From positions 1 through 50,700 of the IMG/VR virus record IMGVR_UViG_3300028024_000181: 50,700 bases of DNA, one strand, 5' to 3'. Below the pieces are notes generated by a model that saw nothing but the letters and a program-made list of their open reading frames with translations, did no database searches and was not told the DNA's origin. Positions 1,975-47,992 of the stretch are shown one piece after another (the first letter of the stretch is position 1; each line of letters opens with the position of its first letter). Made by a program: the position numbers and the translations under genes. Source of the DNA: a virus.

Positions 1975-2969
1975 CGAGTGCTCCACACGGATGGAAAGCC
2001 GTCATGGGTCTCGCCGTCGAGGGTGCGGCCGGCGGCGCGTTTGCCGACCCGGCGAACGGTGCTGCCATCTTCAAATTGGTGATGAGCGCCGGCGCCGGCC
2101 ACCTCACTGACCGATACCCACTCGCCATTCTGTTTGAACAGGAACGGCACTCGCGCTGCAGCGCACTGATCGCGCAGCGACCGCGCCCATTGCGGATGCA
2201 TCGGACGGGCTGCCGGGCCGCTTTCGCCACCGGCAATAACCCAGTCGATTCCGTCGTCATAGCCGGTCCAGCTCGCGACCTCGCCGCAATGTGGGCAGAG
2301 GGGAATATCCTCATCCGCGCAGTCGGCTCGCTCGATGCTGTCGACGTCGACATAGGACGAGTCTGGGCAAACGTCCATGCACTGGACGCCCGTTGGATCT
2401 AGCCACCGAGCGATGTCAATCGGGCCGAGCATGGGTTCGACGCTTAGGAAGCGAACTTGCGCTGGCGTCTTCAGTAATTTGGGGATATCCCGCTCTGCCT
2501 CTTCTTGATTGACCACCGTAATGCCGAGCCATACATTATCGCGACCGGCAATCCAGTCGTGCGATCGCACACGCGCAATCTCGCGGAAGGCGTTGCCGAT
2601 GCGCTTCGTCAGCAACAGCCAGTTGAGATTCGGAGTGAGTTCGATCAGGTCGCACAAGTCGCGGCGCCAAGTGACGTCGACGTCGGTGTCGAACACATCG
2701 GCAAGCGAAGCGCAGAAGACGCGCTGCCGGCGGCCGTGCTCGGCGAAGAACGATACATGGTTCGCGTTCCACTGAAGCGGCTTGCGCCAGTTGGCCGCCG
2801 ACGTGCGGCGGCGCGTTGCACCGGGCCCCCAGTTGATTGCTGTACCGCTGGCAAACCGCGCATTGCGAGCTTCGGCATAGCAGTGGTCGCAGCCGGGGCT
2901 AACCTTCTGGCATCCTTCCCACGGGTTAAACGTGTGATCGGTCCACTCGATTTTGCTGTTCTCGCTCAA
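1971..2969 (-). CDS. DUF5131 (phage Gp37/Gp68) three-Cys protein
   Basis: The N-terminal signature KIEWTDHTFNPWEGC followed by C27-x2-C30 and YAE is diagnostic of the phage Gp37/Gp68 (DUF5131) family. These proteins carry a three-Cys cluster resembling that of radical SAM enzymes, here C20, C27 and C30 with spacing C-x6-C-x2-C. The C-terminal half keeps LSVEPMLGP and WVIAGGESGPAARPM, also typical. The 332-residue length is in the normal range or slightly long. The biochemical reaction of the family is not established. In other genomes it can pair with a three-Cys-motif partner protein, but no such partner is visible here. Confidence 0.88.
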   Translation of the reverse strand: MSENSKIEWTDHTFNPWEGCQKVSPGCDHCYAEARNARFASGTAINWGPGATRRRTSAANWRKPLQWNANHVSFFAEHGRRQRVFCASLADVFDTDVDVTWRRDLCDLIELTPNLNWLLLTKRIGNAFREIARVRSHDWIAGRDNVWLGITVVNQEEAERDIPKLLKTPAQVRFLSVEPMLGPIDIARWLDPTGVQCMDVCPDSSYVDVDSIERADCADEDIPLCPHCGEVASWTGYDDGIDWVIAGGESGPAARPMHPQWARSLRDQCAAARVPFLFKQNGEWVSVSEVAGAGAHHQFEDGSTVRRVGKRAAGRTLDGETHDGFPSVWSTR

Positions 2970-3178
2970 TTTTGCATCTCCCGGAGTGTCTCGGCATGCC
3001 TCTCGGTGAGACGCGCGTGGAAAGCCGTCAATGCATGGGTGACCGCGTCAAACTCTTTCTCAATGCCGAGTTTGAAGGCGTCGGGAAGCATGTCGTTAAG
3101 AAGCTTCGCTATGGCCGTCGTCCTGTCATCAAGCCGGTGCGTCGCGTCGTGCAATTGCGCTGACGTATAGTTGCTCAT
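2966..3178 (-). CDS. Hypothetical small helical protein
   Basis: This 70-residue protein is not recognised. It is highly charged and predicted helical throughout (LHDATHRLDDRTTAIAKLLNDML, then LTERHAETLREMQ) and has no Cys cluster or membrane segment. An in-frame GTG one codon upstream, at 3181, would give the usual 4-nt overlap, so the start is uncertain by one residue. The stop overlaps the DUF5131 gene by 4 nt. Confidence 0.65.
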   Translation of the reverse strand: MSNYTSAQLHDATHRLDDRTTAIAKLLNDMLPDAFKLGIEKEFDAVTHALTAFHARLTERHAETLREMQN

Positions 3179-3726
3179 CACTCACCACCGCTTGCTGGCT
3201 GCGCGGCGCGAAAAGCGTTGCGCATGCGACGGCTGAAGTCGTGTTCGAATCCTCGATCATCAAACCAGGCGACAATTGCTCTATCAATCTGCTCATCCGT
3301 CAGCGCCCGCGTCTGCTCCACTGGTTGCGCTGGCGCGGCAGTTTCGTCACGCTGCGCACGGTACAAATCGACTTCGAGGCGAAGCACCTGTGCGGCCTTC
3401 TTGACCCGTTCGATTGCATTGAGAGATTCATCCTCTTGCCGCTCGTCGTCGCCGATGATAGTGGCGTAGACCTCTGCCAACGTCTCAGTCATGCGCTGCG
3501 CAACGTACGCGTCCTCGCCCAATGCTGGCGCGGCAGGGGCTAACTCCAATAGCCTTCGGATCGCTGTAAGAACAAACTTGGCAGCACCGGCGTGCGCCCT
3601 TATCGGGAAATAGACGCGCGGCTGAACCCGGGCAATCTCTTCGATCTCGGGCGAGAGTGCCTCCGCGAATCCAATGCGACCGCCTTCGGCTATGAGCCAA
3701 CCTACCAGGGTTAGATCAGCAGTCAT
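3178..3726 (-). CDS. Hypothetical protein
   Basis: This 182-residue protein is not recognised. The N-terminal part is mixed and the middle (residues about 65-125) is strongly helical, with a possible short coiled coil around DESLNAIERVKKAAQVLRLEVDLYRAQ. The C-terminus has a compact helical unit (LTDEQIDRAIVAWFDDRGFEHDFSRRMRNAF) that resembles small recurring phage domains. It has no signal peptide and is probably cytoplasmic. It overlaps both neighbours by about 1-4 nt, consistent with one polycistronic leftward message. Confidence 0.65.
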   Translation of the reverse strand: MTADLTLVGWLIAEGGRIGFAEALSPEIEEIARVQPRVYFPIRAHAGAAKFVLTAIRRLLELAPAAPALGEDAYVAQRMTETLAEVYATIIGDDERQEDESLNAIERVKKAAQVLRLEVDLYRAQRDETAAPAQPVEQTRALTDEQIDRAIVAWFDDRGFEHDFSRRMRNAFRAAQPASGGE

Positions 3727-4133
3727 GCTTCGCCTCGCGCTTGCTTGATCGCATCGGAGATAGCCACCATGTCCGCCCAGTACGTGCTTTTGGATGGCCG
3801 AAAGTTCGGGTCGGCGATGATCAACTGCGCGAGAAGGCCATCGAGCGCGGCGTGCGCTTTTTCGAGCAGCTGCAAATGATCACTAGACGCCGCCGGCGGC
3901 TGAGGCACATACGGACCGTGCAGCGTGAGCGTGCTGAGGAAGCGGTCCGGTGCTAGCTCGTGATCGATCGCCAGGCAGAAGACGCGGCCGCCCTGCGAGA
4001 CGAGCGGCACCAACAGGTCTGGATTCTTCGTATCGCCGCCGATATAGATGCCTTCCTTGCCGAGCATCGCGCGGACCTGCGGCTGCAGGGGGTCGATCTC
4101 TTCGGCTTGGCCAATGAGGATTGGATTTTTCAC
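3723..4133 (-). CDS. Hypothetical protein
   Basis: This 136-residue protein is not recognised. A mixed alpha/beta N-terminal half contains GKEGIYIGGDTKNPDLLVPL, and the C-terminal half is helical (HLQLLEKAHAALDGLLAQLI, then STYWADMVAISDAIKQ). It is a soluble protein with few charged runs. It shares 4-nt overlaps with the genes on both sides. Confidence 0.65.
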   Translation of the reverse strand: MKNPILIGQAEEIDPLQPQVRAMLGKEGIYIGGDTKNPDLLVPLVSQGGRVFCLAIDHELAPDRFLSTLTLHGPYVPQPPAASSDHLQLLEKAHAALDGLLAQLIIADPNFRPSKSTYWADMVAISDAIKQARGEA

Positions 4134-4741
4134 TTCGCTTGCTCCTGCAGGGCGGCGATTTTTTCACGCGCGGCGGCGACATCGGCATCGGCATGAGTCG
4201 CCCATTCGGCGCCGTGCGCGAGTACGTGTTTGATCAGCCAATGGAGGCAATAAGCCTGTTCATCTTCGGCGCGCGTCTTGATATCGGCGCCGACGGACCG
4301 GAACAGGTGCGCATAGCGCGCCAGCTGGAAGCACATCATGCCGAGCACGTGGTGCAGCTCGGGTGTCATCTCGGACGGATATGCGAGCGACAACAGATCC
4401 GCGGGCGGCCGAGCGAGGGCCTGGGCAATTCGTGGATGAAACGCGAGGTAGTCGAGATCCGGGTCGACCATGTCGTTGTTCATGATCATGCTGAAGCCCC
4501 AGATCACTCGAAACATGCCGCCCGGCGCCGAATCGAGACACCCCTTTACGCGGTCATAGAACGCACGCAGATGCTCGGAATCGTCGGCATCGAAGAACGT
4601 CGGCTCGTCGGGATCTTCTGCGTTGGGCGCCGACGGGTAATAACCCTTATCGATATCGCCGAGGACGCTCGCGAGTTCTATCGCCGCGTCGATGTCCTGC
4701 TTGGAAGCCTTCGCCATCTTCATCTGGGATTTGATTTTCAC
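4130..4741 (-). CDS. Hypothetical protein, GTG start
   Basis: This protein of about 203 residues is not recognised. It is acidic and largely helical, with segments such as DADDSEHLRAFYDRVKGC and FHPRIAQALARPPADLLSLA, and it ends in a helical tail AAAREKIAALQEQAK. I chose the GTG at 4741 because it has a GGAGAG site 7-8 bases upstream and forms a GTGA overlap with the preceding stop. The ATG at 4723 lacks a ribosome-binding site. Confidence 0.65.
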   Translation of the reverse strand: MKIKSQMKMAKASKQDIDAAIELASVLGDIDKGYYPSAPNAEDPDEPTFFDADDSEHLRAFYDRVKGCLDSAPGGMFRVIWGFSMIMNNDMVDPDLDYLAFHPRIAQALARPPADLLSLAYPSEMTPELHHVLGMMCFQLARYAHLFRSVGADIKTRAEDEQAYCLHWLIKHVLAHGAEWATHADADVAAAREKIAALQEQAK

Positions 4742-4977
4742 TGTTTGCTCTCCGGTGCGTTGTGGACGCGGCCTTCGTTGTTCGCGATGAATTCCTTCAA
4801 GGCGACCAACATGTCTGCGCGTTCCGCATTGCTGATGTAGTTCATTCGGCCGCCGTTGCCGTCGAGTGGGAATATGAAGAGCGCGAAGCCGTATCCCTTG
4901 AAAATATTGGCCATGACGGCGGCGACATCGTTCATCGACTTCCGGTGCTGCGGCTCGATCTCTCGGTGGTTGCTCAT
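4738..4977 (-). CDS. Hypothetical small protein
   Basis: This 79-residue protein is not recognised. It has the segments VAAVMANIFKGYGFALFIFPLDG and RADMLVALKEFIANNEG, which look like a small alpha/beta fold. The hydrophobic middle is too short and broken to be a confident membrane span. It overlaps the Cys-rich gene upstream and the GTG-start gene downstream by 4 nt each. Confidence 0.65.
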   Translation of the reverse strand: MSNHREIEPQHRKSMNDVAAVMANIFKGYGFALFIFPLDGNGGRMNYISNAERADMLVALKEFIANNEGRVHNAPESKQ

Positions 4978-5171
4978 TGGTGTTCCTCAAATAGGTCGGT
5001 CTGCGCCGCTGCATCGACGTGCTCCGGACAGCGGTGCAGATCGGCGCCGACCACCTGTGCGTGCTTCGCACACAGGTGCCTGTCGCACGTCCTGCCGGCC
5101 CTTGTCGGGTAGTCGCACTGGAAGCCGCTCGGTGCATTGCAACCGTCGACAGAGCAGCGGGGCGCACGCAT
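4974..5171 (-). CDS. Cys/His-rich putative zinc-binding protein
   Basis: This 65-residue protein has a dense metal-binding pattern: C6, C11, C19, then C29-x2-H-x-C-x2-H and a final CPEH. A pair of treble-clef or B-box-like zinc sites would fit. Similar small proteins ending in a CPEH motif recur in phage early regions without known function. The gene lies wholly within the 3' part of the Avd-like reading frame (4987-5541) in a different frame. The Cys/His pattern argues that this frame is the translated one here. Its stop overlaps the next gene by 4 nt. Confidence 0.7.
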   Translation of the reverse strand: MRAPRCSVDGCNAPSGFQCDYPTRAGRTCDRHLCAKHAQVVGADLHRCPEHVDAAAQTDLFEEHQ

Positions 5172-5541
5172 GCGGCCGCGCGTGCAGACGATTCGGGCGG
5201 TTAGCGGCCCACTCCCTCCACTTAACAGCCTGTTTGCTGATGCTCTCCGTCAGACGGATCACGGACCAATACTGACGGTCCGTGATCTCATTCAAGTCCC
5301 ACGCAAGACGGAAAAGCGACTCGACGATCTTTACGCGCTCGATCAGCTGGGACAGGTGCGGTACCTTGTCCTCGGCGACATTGGCGCGATAGACGAGAAT
5401 CAGCAGTCGCTTCATCTCTTCGACGATATCCTCGCCGATCAATCGCCTGAACGAGCGTTCCATGTTTTTGACGATGCCTGTGACCTTCTTGAAAAGGTCA
5501 AATCCCGTCTTGTACACGTCGAGTTCGGTGTGGAGGGCCAT
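4987..5541 (-). CDS. avd: Avd-like four-helix-bundle protein (DGR accessory factor)
   Basis: Residues 1-115 look like the four-helix-bundle family that includes Avd, the accessory variability determinant of diversity-generating retroelements, and the 23S rRNA intervening-sequence proteins. Key parts are the basic helix after residue 28 (RSFRRLIGEDIVEEMKRLL) and the family-typical end ESLFRLAWDLNEI followed by SISKQAVKW. In known DGRs Avd forms a barrel-shaped pentamer that binds the reverse transcriptase and template RNA. It lies 13 nt after a gene ending in a variable-repeat sequence, the usual DGR order. Beyond about residue 120 the frame becomes Arg/Pro/Cys-rich and overlaps the Cys-rich gene completely, so this tail is probably not native. 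No clear ribosome-binding site is seen. Confidence 0.75.
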   Translation of the reverse strand: MALHTELDVYKTGFDLFKKVTGIVKNMERSFRRLIGEDIVEEMKRLLILVYRANVAEDKVPHLSQLIERVKIVESLFRLAWDLNEITDRQYWSVIRLTESISKQAVKWREWAANRPNRLHARPHACAPLLCRRLQCTERLPVRLPDKGRQDVRQAPVCEARTGGRRRSAPLSGARRCSGADRPI

Positions 5542-5554
5542 AGTGGCTAAATGA

Positions 5555-6022
5555 TTAAATTACTGAAGGAATAAATCTGCTGACGGCGACCCCGCGGAGC
5601 TCAGCGCTCTTGAGGAGGCTGATCTGGAGGCCGTAGAAGAAGTTCTGACACCAGGCGGAAGCTGGATTGCCCTCATAGTCCTCTTCGAGCCACATGCTCC
5701 CCTCGGCGCAGAACTCCGGGAATGTGGCCTGCAAGAGACGTCCTTCGCGGCGATTGGGGAGCTTGAGGTCGCGATCGCCAACATATGCCTTCGCGGCGTC
5801 GTGATTGACATCGGTAGCTTCGCCCGTGTGCAGGATCAGGTAATAGTCGAGCGAACCGTCTTCCTTGAAGATCGGTCCGGCGACGCGTGCGCCGCTTGGG
5901 AGCGGGATCACCGTCCGCTCGATGACATACTCGGTGGCGATGGCTTGCTGCTTGAACTGCTCGATTAGCGCGCCGATGCGTGCATGTTCGGACTCGATGT
6001 GATCCAGTGTGACGTGGGACAT
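5555..6022 (-). CDS. DGR-type variable protein 1
   Basis: This 155-residue protein ends in the pattern SAWCQNFFYG...KSAELRGVAVSRF, which matches the C-terminal part of DUF1566-like C-type-lectin folds that DGRs diversify (compare a generic W-x-Q-x-F-x-x-G ... R-x-V-R-x-F). The last about 31 residues are encoded by a repeat shared with the upstream gene. Relative to that copy, substitutions fall in ten residues. There is no signal peptide, so it is probably cytoplasmic or a virion component. I chose the ATG at 6022 because it has a GGAGAG site about 7 bases upstream. The Avd-like gene follows after 13 nt. The ligand is unknown. Confidence 0.72.
   Translation of the reverse strand: MSHVTLDHIESEHARIGALIEQFKQQAIATEYVIERTVIPLPSGARVAGPIFKEDGSLDYYLILHTGEATDVNHDAAKAYVGDRDLKLPNRREGRLLQATFPEFCAEGSMWLEEDYEGNPASAWCQNFFYGLQISLLKSAELRGVAVSRFIPSVI
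5574..5667 (-). repeat. Variable-repeat-like copy 1 (VR1)
   Basis: This 94-bp segment at the 3' end of the first variable gene aligns without gaps to 6071-6164. The promoter-distal 37 bp are identical and the rest carries 13 mismatches. All 13 are in codon positions 1 or 2 of the coding strand and none is in position 3. In ten of them one copy has an adenine, and the other three are compatible with a lost adenine. This is the signature left by adenine-specific mutagenic homing from a template with AAY codons. Confidence 0.8.
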
Positions 6023-6060
6023 TGAATCTCTCCGGATGGAAGTTCGAATGAGTGAATGAA

Positions 6061-6420
6061 TCAAATAGTGAATCTGCTGACGGCGACCCCGCGGAGCTCA
6101 GCGCTCTCGTGGTTGCCGTACTGGCCGCCGTAGTAGCAGTTCTGATACCAGGCGTAAGCTGGATCCCAGTCGACATCGTCGTCGGTCCAGTAGGCCTCGG
6201 GCTTTACGAGATCGCGGTGCTCGTTGTAGATCACGAGAGCGTCGATGCGGTTGTACAGAACGCCGCCGACGCTCTTTGCCCAGTCACGCTGCAGATCGCG
6301 CGGCAGGCGCTTGTCGTTCACGGCGATCAGCACGGTGTGCTCGACATCGCCGTGTTTATTGATGCGGCCGTGCAGATAGATTTGGCCCTCTGCAACGGGC
6401 GGAAGTTGGAGTTGTTGCAT
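6061..6420 (-). CDS. DGR-type variable protein 2
   Basis: This 119-residue protein is a shorter relative of the next gene downstream. It ends in AYAWYQNCYYGGQYGNHESA and then ELRGVAVSRF, the presumed surface loop and core strand of a small C-type-lectin-like domain. A tryptophan-containing YWTDDDVDWDP segment precedes the variable part, as in DUF1566-like proteins. No signal peptide is present. Translation starts at an ATG with a strong AAGGAG site 6 bases upstream. An intrinsic terminator lies only about 15 bases before the start codon, so expression probably depends on read-through or antitermination. Confidence 0.72.
   Translation of the reverse strand: MQQLQLPPVAEGQIYLHGRINKHGDVEHTVLIAVNDKRLPRDLQRDWAKSVGGVLYNRIDALVIYNEHRDLVKPEAYWTDDDVDWDPAYAWYQNCYYGGQYGNHESAELRGVAVSRFTI
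6071..6164 (-). repeat. Variable-repeat-like copy 2 (VR2)
   Basis: This is the partner of the repeat at 5574-5667, with 81 of 94 positions identical. In coding sense this copy has adenine at seven of the mismatched positions (for example TAC, TAT and AAC codons) while the other copy has it at three. Neither copy is therefore the parental template, and both look like variable repeats derived from a third sequence. I found no such template elsewhere in the window by eye. Confidence 0.8.
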
Positions 6421-13140: not shown

Positions 13141-13389
13141 TCAGTGGGCCGTGATGAGATAGGTATCCAGCATGTTCGACGACACATCCAGACACCACGC
13201 GAGGACGGCTAGGACGTGCAGATCGGCAACGCGAGTCCGGCTGGGCACGATGGTGCCACCGCGTGTCACCGAAAAATGCACATCGGTCACTATCTCCTGG
13301 TCATGCTTGCGTTTTTTGCTATTCCTCGCGGCCCGGTAGGCTGCGAAGTCGACGATCTCAGGTCCCGTTCTTTCCCGTGTCATGTTCAT
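13141..13389 (-). CDS. Hypothetical protein co-transcribed with the repressor
   Basis: The product is about 82 residues (MNMTRERTGPEIVDFAAYRAARN..., then LHVLAVLAWCLDVSSNML). It is not recognised. It starts about 31 nt inside the repressor gene in another frame and is followed by an intrinsic terminator. It is therefore the last gene of the lysogenic transcript and probably expressed in the prophage state. An accessory role in immunity would be typical of this position, but it is inference. Confidence 0.55.
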   Translation of the reverse strand: MNMTRERTGPEIVDFAAYRAARNSKKRKHDQEIVTDVHFSVTRGGTIVPSRTRVADLHVLAVLAWCLDVSSNMLDTYLITAH

Positions 13390-14038
13390 GGTCACTCTCA
13401 GGTTGCGCGGCCGATCGGGTGCCGGCTCTAGCGTGTCTGGCAAAGGTAGCCGGGCTTTCAGCAACCTTGTCAGAGGAGGAGTGTGCTTCTGTGGCGCGTG
13501 CTTTAAACGGCGGATTAGAGGTGTTTTTACCCTCTTCTCGAGAGTTTTGCGCGCCAAGCATTAATAGGATCGCCGCCCGAATTGTGGGCGACATGTCAGC
13601 TTGCACGGCATGCAATGCCGCACGCAATAAAGTTGCGTCATCGTCTGTAATTGCCATGAGACGGTGCTGCCCGTCTATTTCGTGCAGGATTTTGGCAAGG
13701 GCGCGTGTGAGCTGCGGTCCCGCCTGCGACGTTCCTCGGGCGGCGTCTTCCGCACGCAATGCTGTGTCTGGCACCGTGGGCACGCTAGCGCCCCGTTTCT
13801 CGCCGCGTTCCGTTGCGAGCCATTCGAAGTTGACGCCGAGCCAATGAGCAAGGTCCATCAGGCGCGACGTCTCCGGGATTGCTTCTCCCTCCAGCCACTT
13901 TCTGGCCCCTTTCTGCGAGACGCCCATCTTCTCGCCCAGCGCCCTTTGGCGGCCAGCGCCCTTCGCGGGGAAGCGGATATCGTCCAATGCCTCGTTCAGC
14001 CGGGCCGCGAAAGCGCGTTTTTGATCGTCAGTAACCAT
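13358..14038 (-). CDS. XRE-family phage repressor (CI-like)
   Basis: The 226-residue protein has an N-terminal helix-turn-helix of the XRE type (RQRALGEKMGVSQKGARKWLEGEAIPETSRLMDLAHWLGVNFEWLATERG split over residues about 29-79). The C-terminal part is not the usual LexA/S24 peptidase fold. It is Ala/Ser-rich and lacks a visible Ser-Lys catalytic pair, so induction by RecA-stimulated self-cleavage is uncertain. It is divergent from the small Cro-like gene across a 76-bp region with two operators, the typical switch position. The promoter for this gene would fire away from operator 14063-14078 with a start point near the ATG. Confidence 0.85.
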   Translation of the reverse strand: MVTDDQKRAFAARLNEALDDIRFPAKGAGRQRALGEKMGVSQKGARKWLEGEAIPETSRLMDLAHWLGVNFEWLATERGEKRGASVPTVPDTALRAEDAARGTSQAGPQLTRALAKILHEIDGQHRLMAITDDDATLLRAALHAVQADMSPTIRAAILLMLGAQNSREEGKNTSNPPFKARATEAHSSSDKVAESPATFARHARAGTRSAAQPESDHEHDTGKNGT

Positions 14039-46693: not shown

Positions 46694-47992
46694 ATGGACC
46701 GTCTAATTGCGCCGAACTCAGTTCCACTAGCCCAAGCGGACACGGCGCCCGCTACGGGAACGCCGCAATATGCGACCGACGGTAACCCGGCGACGAATGT
46801 GCCGGCGACGCAGTGGCCGGCATATGCGTTTAATACCCTGCAGGACGAGATTTACAACGTCATCATCGCCGCAGGGCTAACGCCGAATCGCAATGCATGG
46901 AATCAGCTGCTCACTGCGATTCAATCGATGCTTCAGGGGAGCACGACGAATGTAGGTGTCGATACCGGCGCTGCGAATGCATATGTTGTTGCGTTCACGC
47001 CAGCACTCCCTAATCCGGTTCCATGGGTGCCGTTCTGGTTCGAGGTCGCACACACGAACACAGGAGCCTCGACGCTCAATGCAACGAGGACGGTCGAGCC
47101 ACTCGTCGGTGCTGCGCACGCGGCGTTGCAAGGCGGTGAGCTCGTCGCGAAGGGCAATGCACTCGTCTACTGGAACCCGACGCTCAATTCGAATGCGGGA
47201 GCCTATGTGCTCCTCTTCTGCTCTGGAGCAGCGGAGCAAGTTGCACCGGCTACGCAGTCGGGGCATGCCATGCAACTCGGGCAGGCGACCGGCCGCCTTC
47301 TACGTACAAGCGTGTATCGCCTCATTTCCGGCGTCCTTAGCGTCTCGGTGAATGGCGGATCGTTCACGGCAACGGGAGGTGCAAATTTCACTCCGTTGGC
47401 ACTAACGAATTCGATTGTTGCGGAGGTGATCGGTGGTGGTGGTGGATCCGGAAGTACTCTGAATCCATCTACCGGAAATACATCAATGACCGGCGGCGGA
47501 GGAGGCGCGAACGTTCAACGCGGGCTGTTCACCAGTGGCTTTAGTTCGCTTGCGCCCACCGTTGGAGTTGGTGGCACGGGCGGCGTAGGTAGCGCGGTCG
47601 CGGGAGGTACGGGCGGAACATCAAGCCTTGGAGCGCTCATATCCGCAGGAGGAGGCGGCGGCAGCGCTGGCGGTCTCTCGTTCGCAACAACTACCAATGC
47701 TGCGGCTTCTGGCGGTGGAGGCAGCGGGACTGGCGCAGGCGGCAACCTGGCTAGCTTGCAAGGTGCCACAGGTGCCAATGGCTTCTCACTAACTGGCGCA
47801 CTACTGAGTGGAGCGGGGGGATCGAACGGCCTGGGCTATCCCGGCGCGCAGGGCGTTGGCAGCGGGCAACAAGGCGTCGCCGGTCCGAACGTCGGCTCTG
47901 GTGCAAGCGGCGCTACATCAGCTTCTGGAGGCGGAGCGCAATCGGGCGCCGCAGGATCGCCCGGTCAAATCACCGTTTGGGAATACCAATAA
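46694..47992 (+). CDS. Tail fibre protein with glycine-rich tip
   Basis: The 432-residue product has an N-terminal baseplate-attachment region (residues 1-90, TPQYATDGNPATNVPATQWPAYAFNTLQDEIYNVI). A beta-rich shaft follows, then a Gly/Ser/Ala-rich end from about residue 235 with many GGGG runs and the finish GQITVWEY. That end resembles polyglycine-sandwich receptor-binding tips. It is likely the receptor-binding protein. It overlaps the next gene start by one base. Confidence 0.85.
   Translation: MDRLIAPNSVPLAQADTAPATGTPQYATDGNPATNVPATQWPAYAFNTLQDEIYNVIIAAGLTPNRNAWNQLLTAIQSMLQGSTTNVGVDTGAANAYVVAFTPALPNPVPWVPFWFEVAHTNTGASTLNATRTVEPLVGAAHAALQGGELVAKGNALVYWNPTLNSNAGAYVLLFCSGAAEQVAPATQSGHAMQLGQATGRLLRTSVYRLISGVLSVSVNGGSFTATGGANFTPLALTNSIVAEVIGGGGGSGSTLNPSTGNTSMTGGGGGANVQRGLFTSGFSSLAPTVGVGGTGGVGSAVAGGTGGTSSLGALISAGGGGGSAGGLSFATTTNAAASGGGGSGTGAGGNLASLQGATGANGFSLTGALLSGAGGSNGLGYPGAQGVGSGQQGVAGPNVGSGASGATSASGGGAQSGAAGSPGQITVWEYQ

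Follow-up and report, generated by a model that had tools for sequence, protein, structure and literature searches.

Genes and repeats at the locus

The window, meaning the whole stretch of DNA analysed (50.7 kb, IMG/VR record IMGVR_UViG_3300028024_000181), belongs to a temperate myovirus with terminase, portal, capsid, sheath and baseplate genes. Two adjacent genes, B and A, end in copies of a variable repeat (VR) and are followed by an avd-like gene; the segment where the template repeat (TR) and the reverse transcriptase (RT) of a DGR would be expected holds other genes. DGRs, or diversity-generating retroelements, are devices with which phages randomise selected letters of a binding protein. 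The features are listed below.

1-1053: integrase
2969-5193, minus strand: interval expected to hold TR and RT, with unrelated small genes instead (about 2.2 kb)
4974-5171, minus strand: gene X, 65 aa, Cys/His-rich
4987-5193, minus strand: aberrant extension of avd by read-through (about 68 codons), in a frame other than that of gene X beneath
5194-5541, minus strand: gene for an Avd-like accessory protein (the four-helix-bundle protein of DGRs), with a conserved core of 116 codons
5555-6022, minus strand: target gene A, second of the two, 155 aa, N-terminal helix plus predicted C-type-lectin fold
5574-5667, minus strand: VR-A, 3' end of gene A
5574-5610, minus strand: invariant 3' tail of VR-A, IMH-like
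6061-6420, minus strand: target gene B, first of the two, 119 aa, predicted Lcl_C/C-type-lectin fold
6071-6164, minus strand: VR-B, 3' end of gene B
6071-6107, minus strand: invariant 3' tail of VR-B, IMH-like
13358-14038: repressor-like gene
46694-47992, plus strand: tail fibre gene, in its usual place

The start of gene A is best placed at the ATG at 6022, in agreement with all homologues. Only two copies of the repeat occur in the window, those in genes A and B, and the tail fibre gene is without one.

VR-A and VR-B align without gaps over 94 bp and, read on the minus strand, differ at exactly 13 sites, all of them in codon positions 1 or 2 and none in position 3 (P = 0.003 for zero position-3 differences among 13 random sites); ten residues are altered, and the 37-bp 3' tails show no difference at all. 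The alignment given in the first-pass annotation, which had been made from the window alone, was reproduced exactly in each of these respects. An adenine is present in one copy at 10 of the 13 sites, and the other three are T/G, C/G and T/G, with adenine in neither copy. No BPP-1-like DNA hairpin was detected 3' of VR-A or VR-B, where no fold exceeded shuffled sequences, and the same was true of the closest RT-bearing relative described below. Such a downstream hairpin is not universal among DGRs.

Products of genes B and A

Alignments of the window with the fetched loci served as input for structure models of both proteins. B and A are confidently modelled as C-type-lectin folds (pLDDT 94.8 for B and 89.9 for A) with the VR at the C-terminus, nearest to Lcl_C; the best PDB match of both models was 8q4e, the C-terminal domain of Legionella Lcl, with numerous C-type lectins next in rank. 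Structure prediction and fold search thus bore out the lectin fold that had been guessed from short protein motifs. In Pfam, Lcl_C (PF07603, DUF1566) was matched by 32 of 43 B family members and 26 of 34 A family members, the window proteins themselves scoring under the cutoff (E = 0.046 for A). Ligand binding is the presumed function of both.

The two genes lie on the minus strand near the integrase, distant from the structural and tail genes, so their products need not be virion receptor-binding proteins, and with this site, away from the tail fibre genes, they may serve some purpose other than to switch host range.

A template in a related prophage

In tblastn and DNA-level searches the A/B gene pair turned up, upstream of genes for Avd and a reverse transcriptase, in many prophages of Burkholderiaceae as well as in Burkholderia phage Magia and Shewanella phage vB_Sb_QDWS. 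Hujiaoplasma phage zrk29-1 and vB_Sb_QDWS (OP650936.1, OK094664.1) are both 47,902 bp long and gave near-equal matches in opposite orientation, so they are probably one phage under two host names.

The closest relative of the window locus is a prophage of Paraburkholderia sediminicola LMG 24238 (NZ_CADIKC010000015, hereafter L008), whose cassette reads B-A-Avd, then an AAC-rich TR (L008 11398-11489, between avd and the RT core), then RT. The TR of L008 falls within a reading frame that stays open into the RT ORF (L008 11232-12593), as it also does in four other loci (L001, L002, L012 and L013); RT annotations that begin before the TR, such as Magia CPT_Magia_044, are therefore probably too long.

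All 13 sites at which VR-A and VR-B differ are adenines in the L008 TR (P = 1.7e-8, given 28 adenines among 92 bases). These include the three sites without adenine in either copy, which the first-pass annotation had taken for adenine loss in both. Its further claim that both copies depart from a template it had not seen also held, VR-B having 10 mismatches to the L008 TR, 9 of them on TR adenines, and VR-A 14, of which 13 are on TR adenines. The sole non-adenine mismatch of each is a T->C common to every VR, including those of L008 itself, so the change belongs to the L008 TR. The prediction of AAY template codons at the ten variable residues stood in part: five are AAC, whereas TAT or TAC (three), CAC (one) and AAG (one) depart from it, so that AAY does not apply throughout. 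An eleventh codon, AAC in the L008 TR, is TAC in both VR-A and VR-B.

Over 35 bp the VR-A tail, and likewise the inner part of the VR-B tail, is identical to the L008 TR, and this was the one exact occurrence of the 35-bp tail in 148 genomes of the genus. This TR is that of a relative, and the lineage of the window itself yielded none. Both the adenine restriction and the template in a relative can be read directly from the sequences, and two copies alone suffice to recognise adenine-directed variable repeats, which the template in a relative then verifies.

The two VRs of L008 share two tail differences from their own TR (G->C and C->T), whereas the window VRs match that TR exactly. Because the window tails resemble the TR of L008 rather than its VRs, conversion of IMH to IMH* was considered as the cause of inactivation; it was dropped on finding the GGGGTC core in both VR and TR of another locus (L013).

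Of 700 TR/VR mismatches counted in related cassettes (59 TR/VR pairs, part of them redundant), 671 lie on TR adenines, which is the restriction that the first-pass annotation had asked to be sought in related prophages; 20 of the other 29 trace to a single misregistered copy present in two records of the same prophage. The template homologue it had called for is present in L008 and in most related cassettes, adjoining the RT and Avd genes. Within a locus, TR, VR-A and VR-B agree at non-adenine bases even where loci differ from each other, the mark of repeated template-driven replacement.

A plain gene duplication followed by positive selection on the binding surface, with no retroelement involved, would account for differences that are nonsynonymous and clustered towards the C-terminus of a lectin-fold domain. 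It would leave to chance the coincidence of every differing site with an adenine of an independent template, and it fits poorly with two proteins that share only about 39% identity outside the VR, over part of their length, yet carry DNA-identical tails, or with the presence of TR, RT and Avd at orthologous loci; we give this explanation next to no credence. A DGR origin of the two variable genes, as first proposed from the repeats, is supported by the match of all differing sites to the template, the 35-bp tail, the adenine bias throughout the family with its TR- and RT-bearing cassettes, and the C-type-lectin folds.

Absence of TR and RT from the window

The avd product is 95% identical to the Avd of L008, which adjoins RT there, and 45% identical to that of phage Magia, and it matches Pfam bAvd (PF22296) at E = 7e-6, under the gathering cutoff. 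PDB sequence matches of the Avd profile to DARPins were rejected as spurious, as they involved one helix and no stretch that passed alone. The Avd of L008 has 125 aa, whereas the avd ORF of the window has lost its stop codon and runs to 184 aa, extending across gene X in another frame, so that its C-terminus is aberrant. Gene X (79% nucleotide identity to L008 9750-9956) lies directly after avd in the window and upstream of B in L008, and has separate homologues in other Paraburkholderia genomes. Collinearity with L008 ends at window position 5194 (L008 11227, the end of avd) and restarts at 2968 (L008 12591, just past RT).

As far as the sequence of the record goes, both missing components are absent. 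Profile searches of the 50.7 kb detected no RVT_1 domain, tblastn with the RTs of relatives gave zero matches in the window, and beyond VR-A and VR-B no further copy of the repeat was present: after their two 37-bp tails, the best match to that sequence reached 22/37. The locus thus has the adenine-restricted VR differences, invariant 3' tail, Avd and C-type-lectin targets of a complete DGR but neither its RT nor its TR, and adenine-mutated VR genes with no RT in cis place it among RT-less partial DGRs. Without RT and TR in the window, it represents the product or the remains of a DGR rather than one that works in cis.

The DGR could be intact in the real genome, its RT/TR segment having been lost from the record by mis-assembly at 5193, as the VRs and the TR are near-identical direct repeats that can collapse in short-read assembly. 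Collapse between such repeats should have deleted avd as well, and avd is present; moreover, gene X is relocated, and the place of the missing segment is taken by other genes, a coherent run of about 2.2 kb. We regard such an artefact as highly improbable. Searches of IMG/VR with the exact tail and with the exact avd junction found no near-identical copies of the prophage, and no plasmid copies were found.

The locus is best described as a two-target DGR with a broken cassette, and with RT and template lost its variable genes appear to be frozen.

Constraint on the remaining genes, and possible diversification in trans

The orthologues of the window and L008 share 82% (B) and 85% (A) protein identity and have diverged with dS of 0.2-0.7. 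Outside the VRs, dN/dS against L008 is 0.08 for B and 0.20 for A, and for avd it is 0.06 (0.055 unrounded). The low value for avd fits a recent loss of the RT, but it fits continued use too.

Continued use would be the case if another DGR of the host, in a second prophage or a chromosomal cassette, went on diversifying the VRs in trans. A, B and Avd are intact and constrained, the VR tails are undecayed, some Burkholderiaceae genomes contain two cassettes, and remote diversification has been proposed for RT-less archaeal VRs (PMC4372165). On the other hand, the record, which is one virus contig of 50.7 kb, holds no second DGR cassette, and the exact tail occurs in just one other genome of 148. 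In one genome (G152) with duplicated RT-less cassettes the VRs are identical and there is no RVT_1 match, so trans activity is not evident there. Diversification in trans is, on balance, unlikely. Duplicate cassettes in one genome were also tried as a test of activity; the copies are recent and identical, which makes them uninformative where they bear an RT.

The loss of TR and RT looks recent, since B, A and avd are still under constraint and the VR tails have stayed alike. Zero differences between the tails, despite the divergence from L008, fits homogenisation by a common template until recently.

RT loss among relatives

A sample of 399 genomes of the family Burkholderiaceae contained 30 with a homologue of B. 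The RT was at the expected place in 20 of these (in several, only its 5' part had been fetched), and about a third (10/30) had no intact RT within 13-20 kb. In three loci an HNH_3 endonuclease gene replaces Avd, TR and the RT core, lying between gene A and a stand-alone small ORF that corresponds to the last 40-50 residues of RT. The coordinates of these genes are as follows.

L047, 7251-7846 (minus-strand coordinates): HNH_3 gene between gene A and the RT-tail ORF
L048, 8251-8855: HNH_3 gene between gene A and the RT-tail ORF
L050, 13578-14177: HNH_3 gene between gene A and the RT-tail ORF

In two further loci (L049 and L010) this site is taken by another ORF, whose only matches, to helix-turn-helix, are weak, and again only the C-terminal tail of RT remains; avd is intact in L010 and truncated in L049. 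The residual RT-tail ORF has a dN/dS of 0.06-0.23, as in the same segment of intact RTs, a divergence that may predate the loss. No published report of HNH genes at DGR RT sites was found among titles and abstracts.

These loci raise the possibility, which we put forward tentatively, that RT loss is a recurrent and tolerated fate in this prophage DGR family, the targets and sometimes Avd persisting as fixed, selected lectins once the mutator is gone; in some lineages it would have been removed by an HNH endonuclease gene at the Avd-TR-RT site that leaves the conserved 40-50-residue RT tail as an ORF of its own. The window locus and its relatives form a natural series of intact, RT-truncated and RT-free cassettes, in which one can ask what DGR targets do after diversification ends and why phages shed the mutator.

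Proposed history of the locus

B and A would be paralogous targets of the B-A-Avd-TR-RT cassette that is common in Burkholderiaceae prophages. In an ancestor, by analogy with BPP-1-type DGRs, the RT would have made copies of the TR RNA that were faulty at adenines, and the resulting cDNA would have homed to the 3' ends of B and A and taken their place, so that the two C-type-lectin-fold proteins acquired different surfaces for ligand binding. In the window's lineage, a rearrangement would have dropped TR and RT, deleted the avd stop codon and put gene X after avd. Both variants would now be frozen, barring action in trans by a related DGR at another site in the host. With that one proviso, we consider it very probable that the locus as a whole is a recently disarmed two-target DGR.

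Comparison with known systems

In the DGR of Bordetella phage BPP-1 (Mtd, Avd, bRT), adenine-directed variation affects the VR of a C-type-lectin target and Avd serves as a helper. The BPP-1 system is complete and its target is the tail-tip receptor protein, whereas the targets in the window are near the integrase and away from the tail genes. The DGR of L008 resembles the window locus in its B-A-Avd genes (82-87% protein identity), its integrase (87%) and the repeat tail, found in the L008 TR, and differs in having TR and RT and in carrying gene X on the opposite side of the cassette.

Burkholderia phage Magia (MT701587) shares the order lectin, A homologue, Avd, which is followed there by TR, RT and integrase, and its TR/VR mismatches are at adenines only. 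The proteins are 44-47% identical to those of the window, and Magia, unlike the window, has an intact RT and a third, remote VR gene. In its annotation one gene is a 'potential DGR target' and another Avd-like, and the A homologue is labelled just hypothetical. The third VR gene (L001 1989-2369), about 6 kb from the cassette, differs from the TR at 15 positions, each of them a TR adenine; in this family a single TR thus appears to act on remote targets.

The DiGReF survey (PMC3521204) listed two-VR DGRs, among them those of Burkholderia thailandensis MSMB43 and B. glumae BGR1; going by that listing and not by sequence, they have two targets per cassette, like the window, but are RT-bearing. 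Closest to the present state of the locus are the partial DGRs of Nanoarchaeota, whose RT-less VR genes have been interpreted as fossils or as remote targets (PMC4372165). They have in common with the window an adenine-mutated VR target with no RT, and the same question of fossil or remote target; they differ in being archaeal, in having unrelated targets and in that their genomes contain intact DGRs (PMC4372165). The window locus is a further example of RT-less VR genes, a kind already reported.
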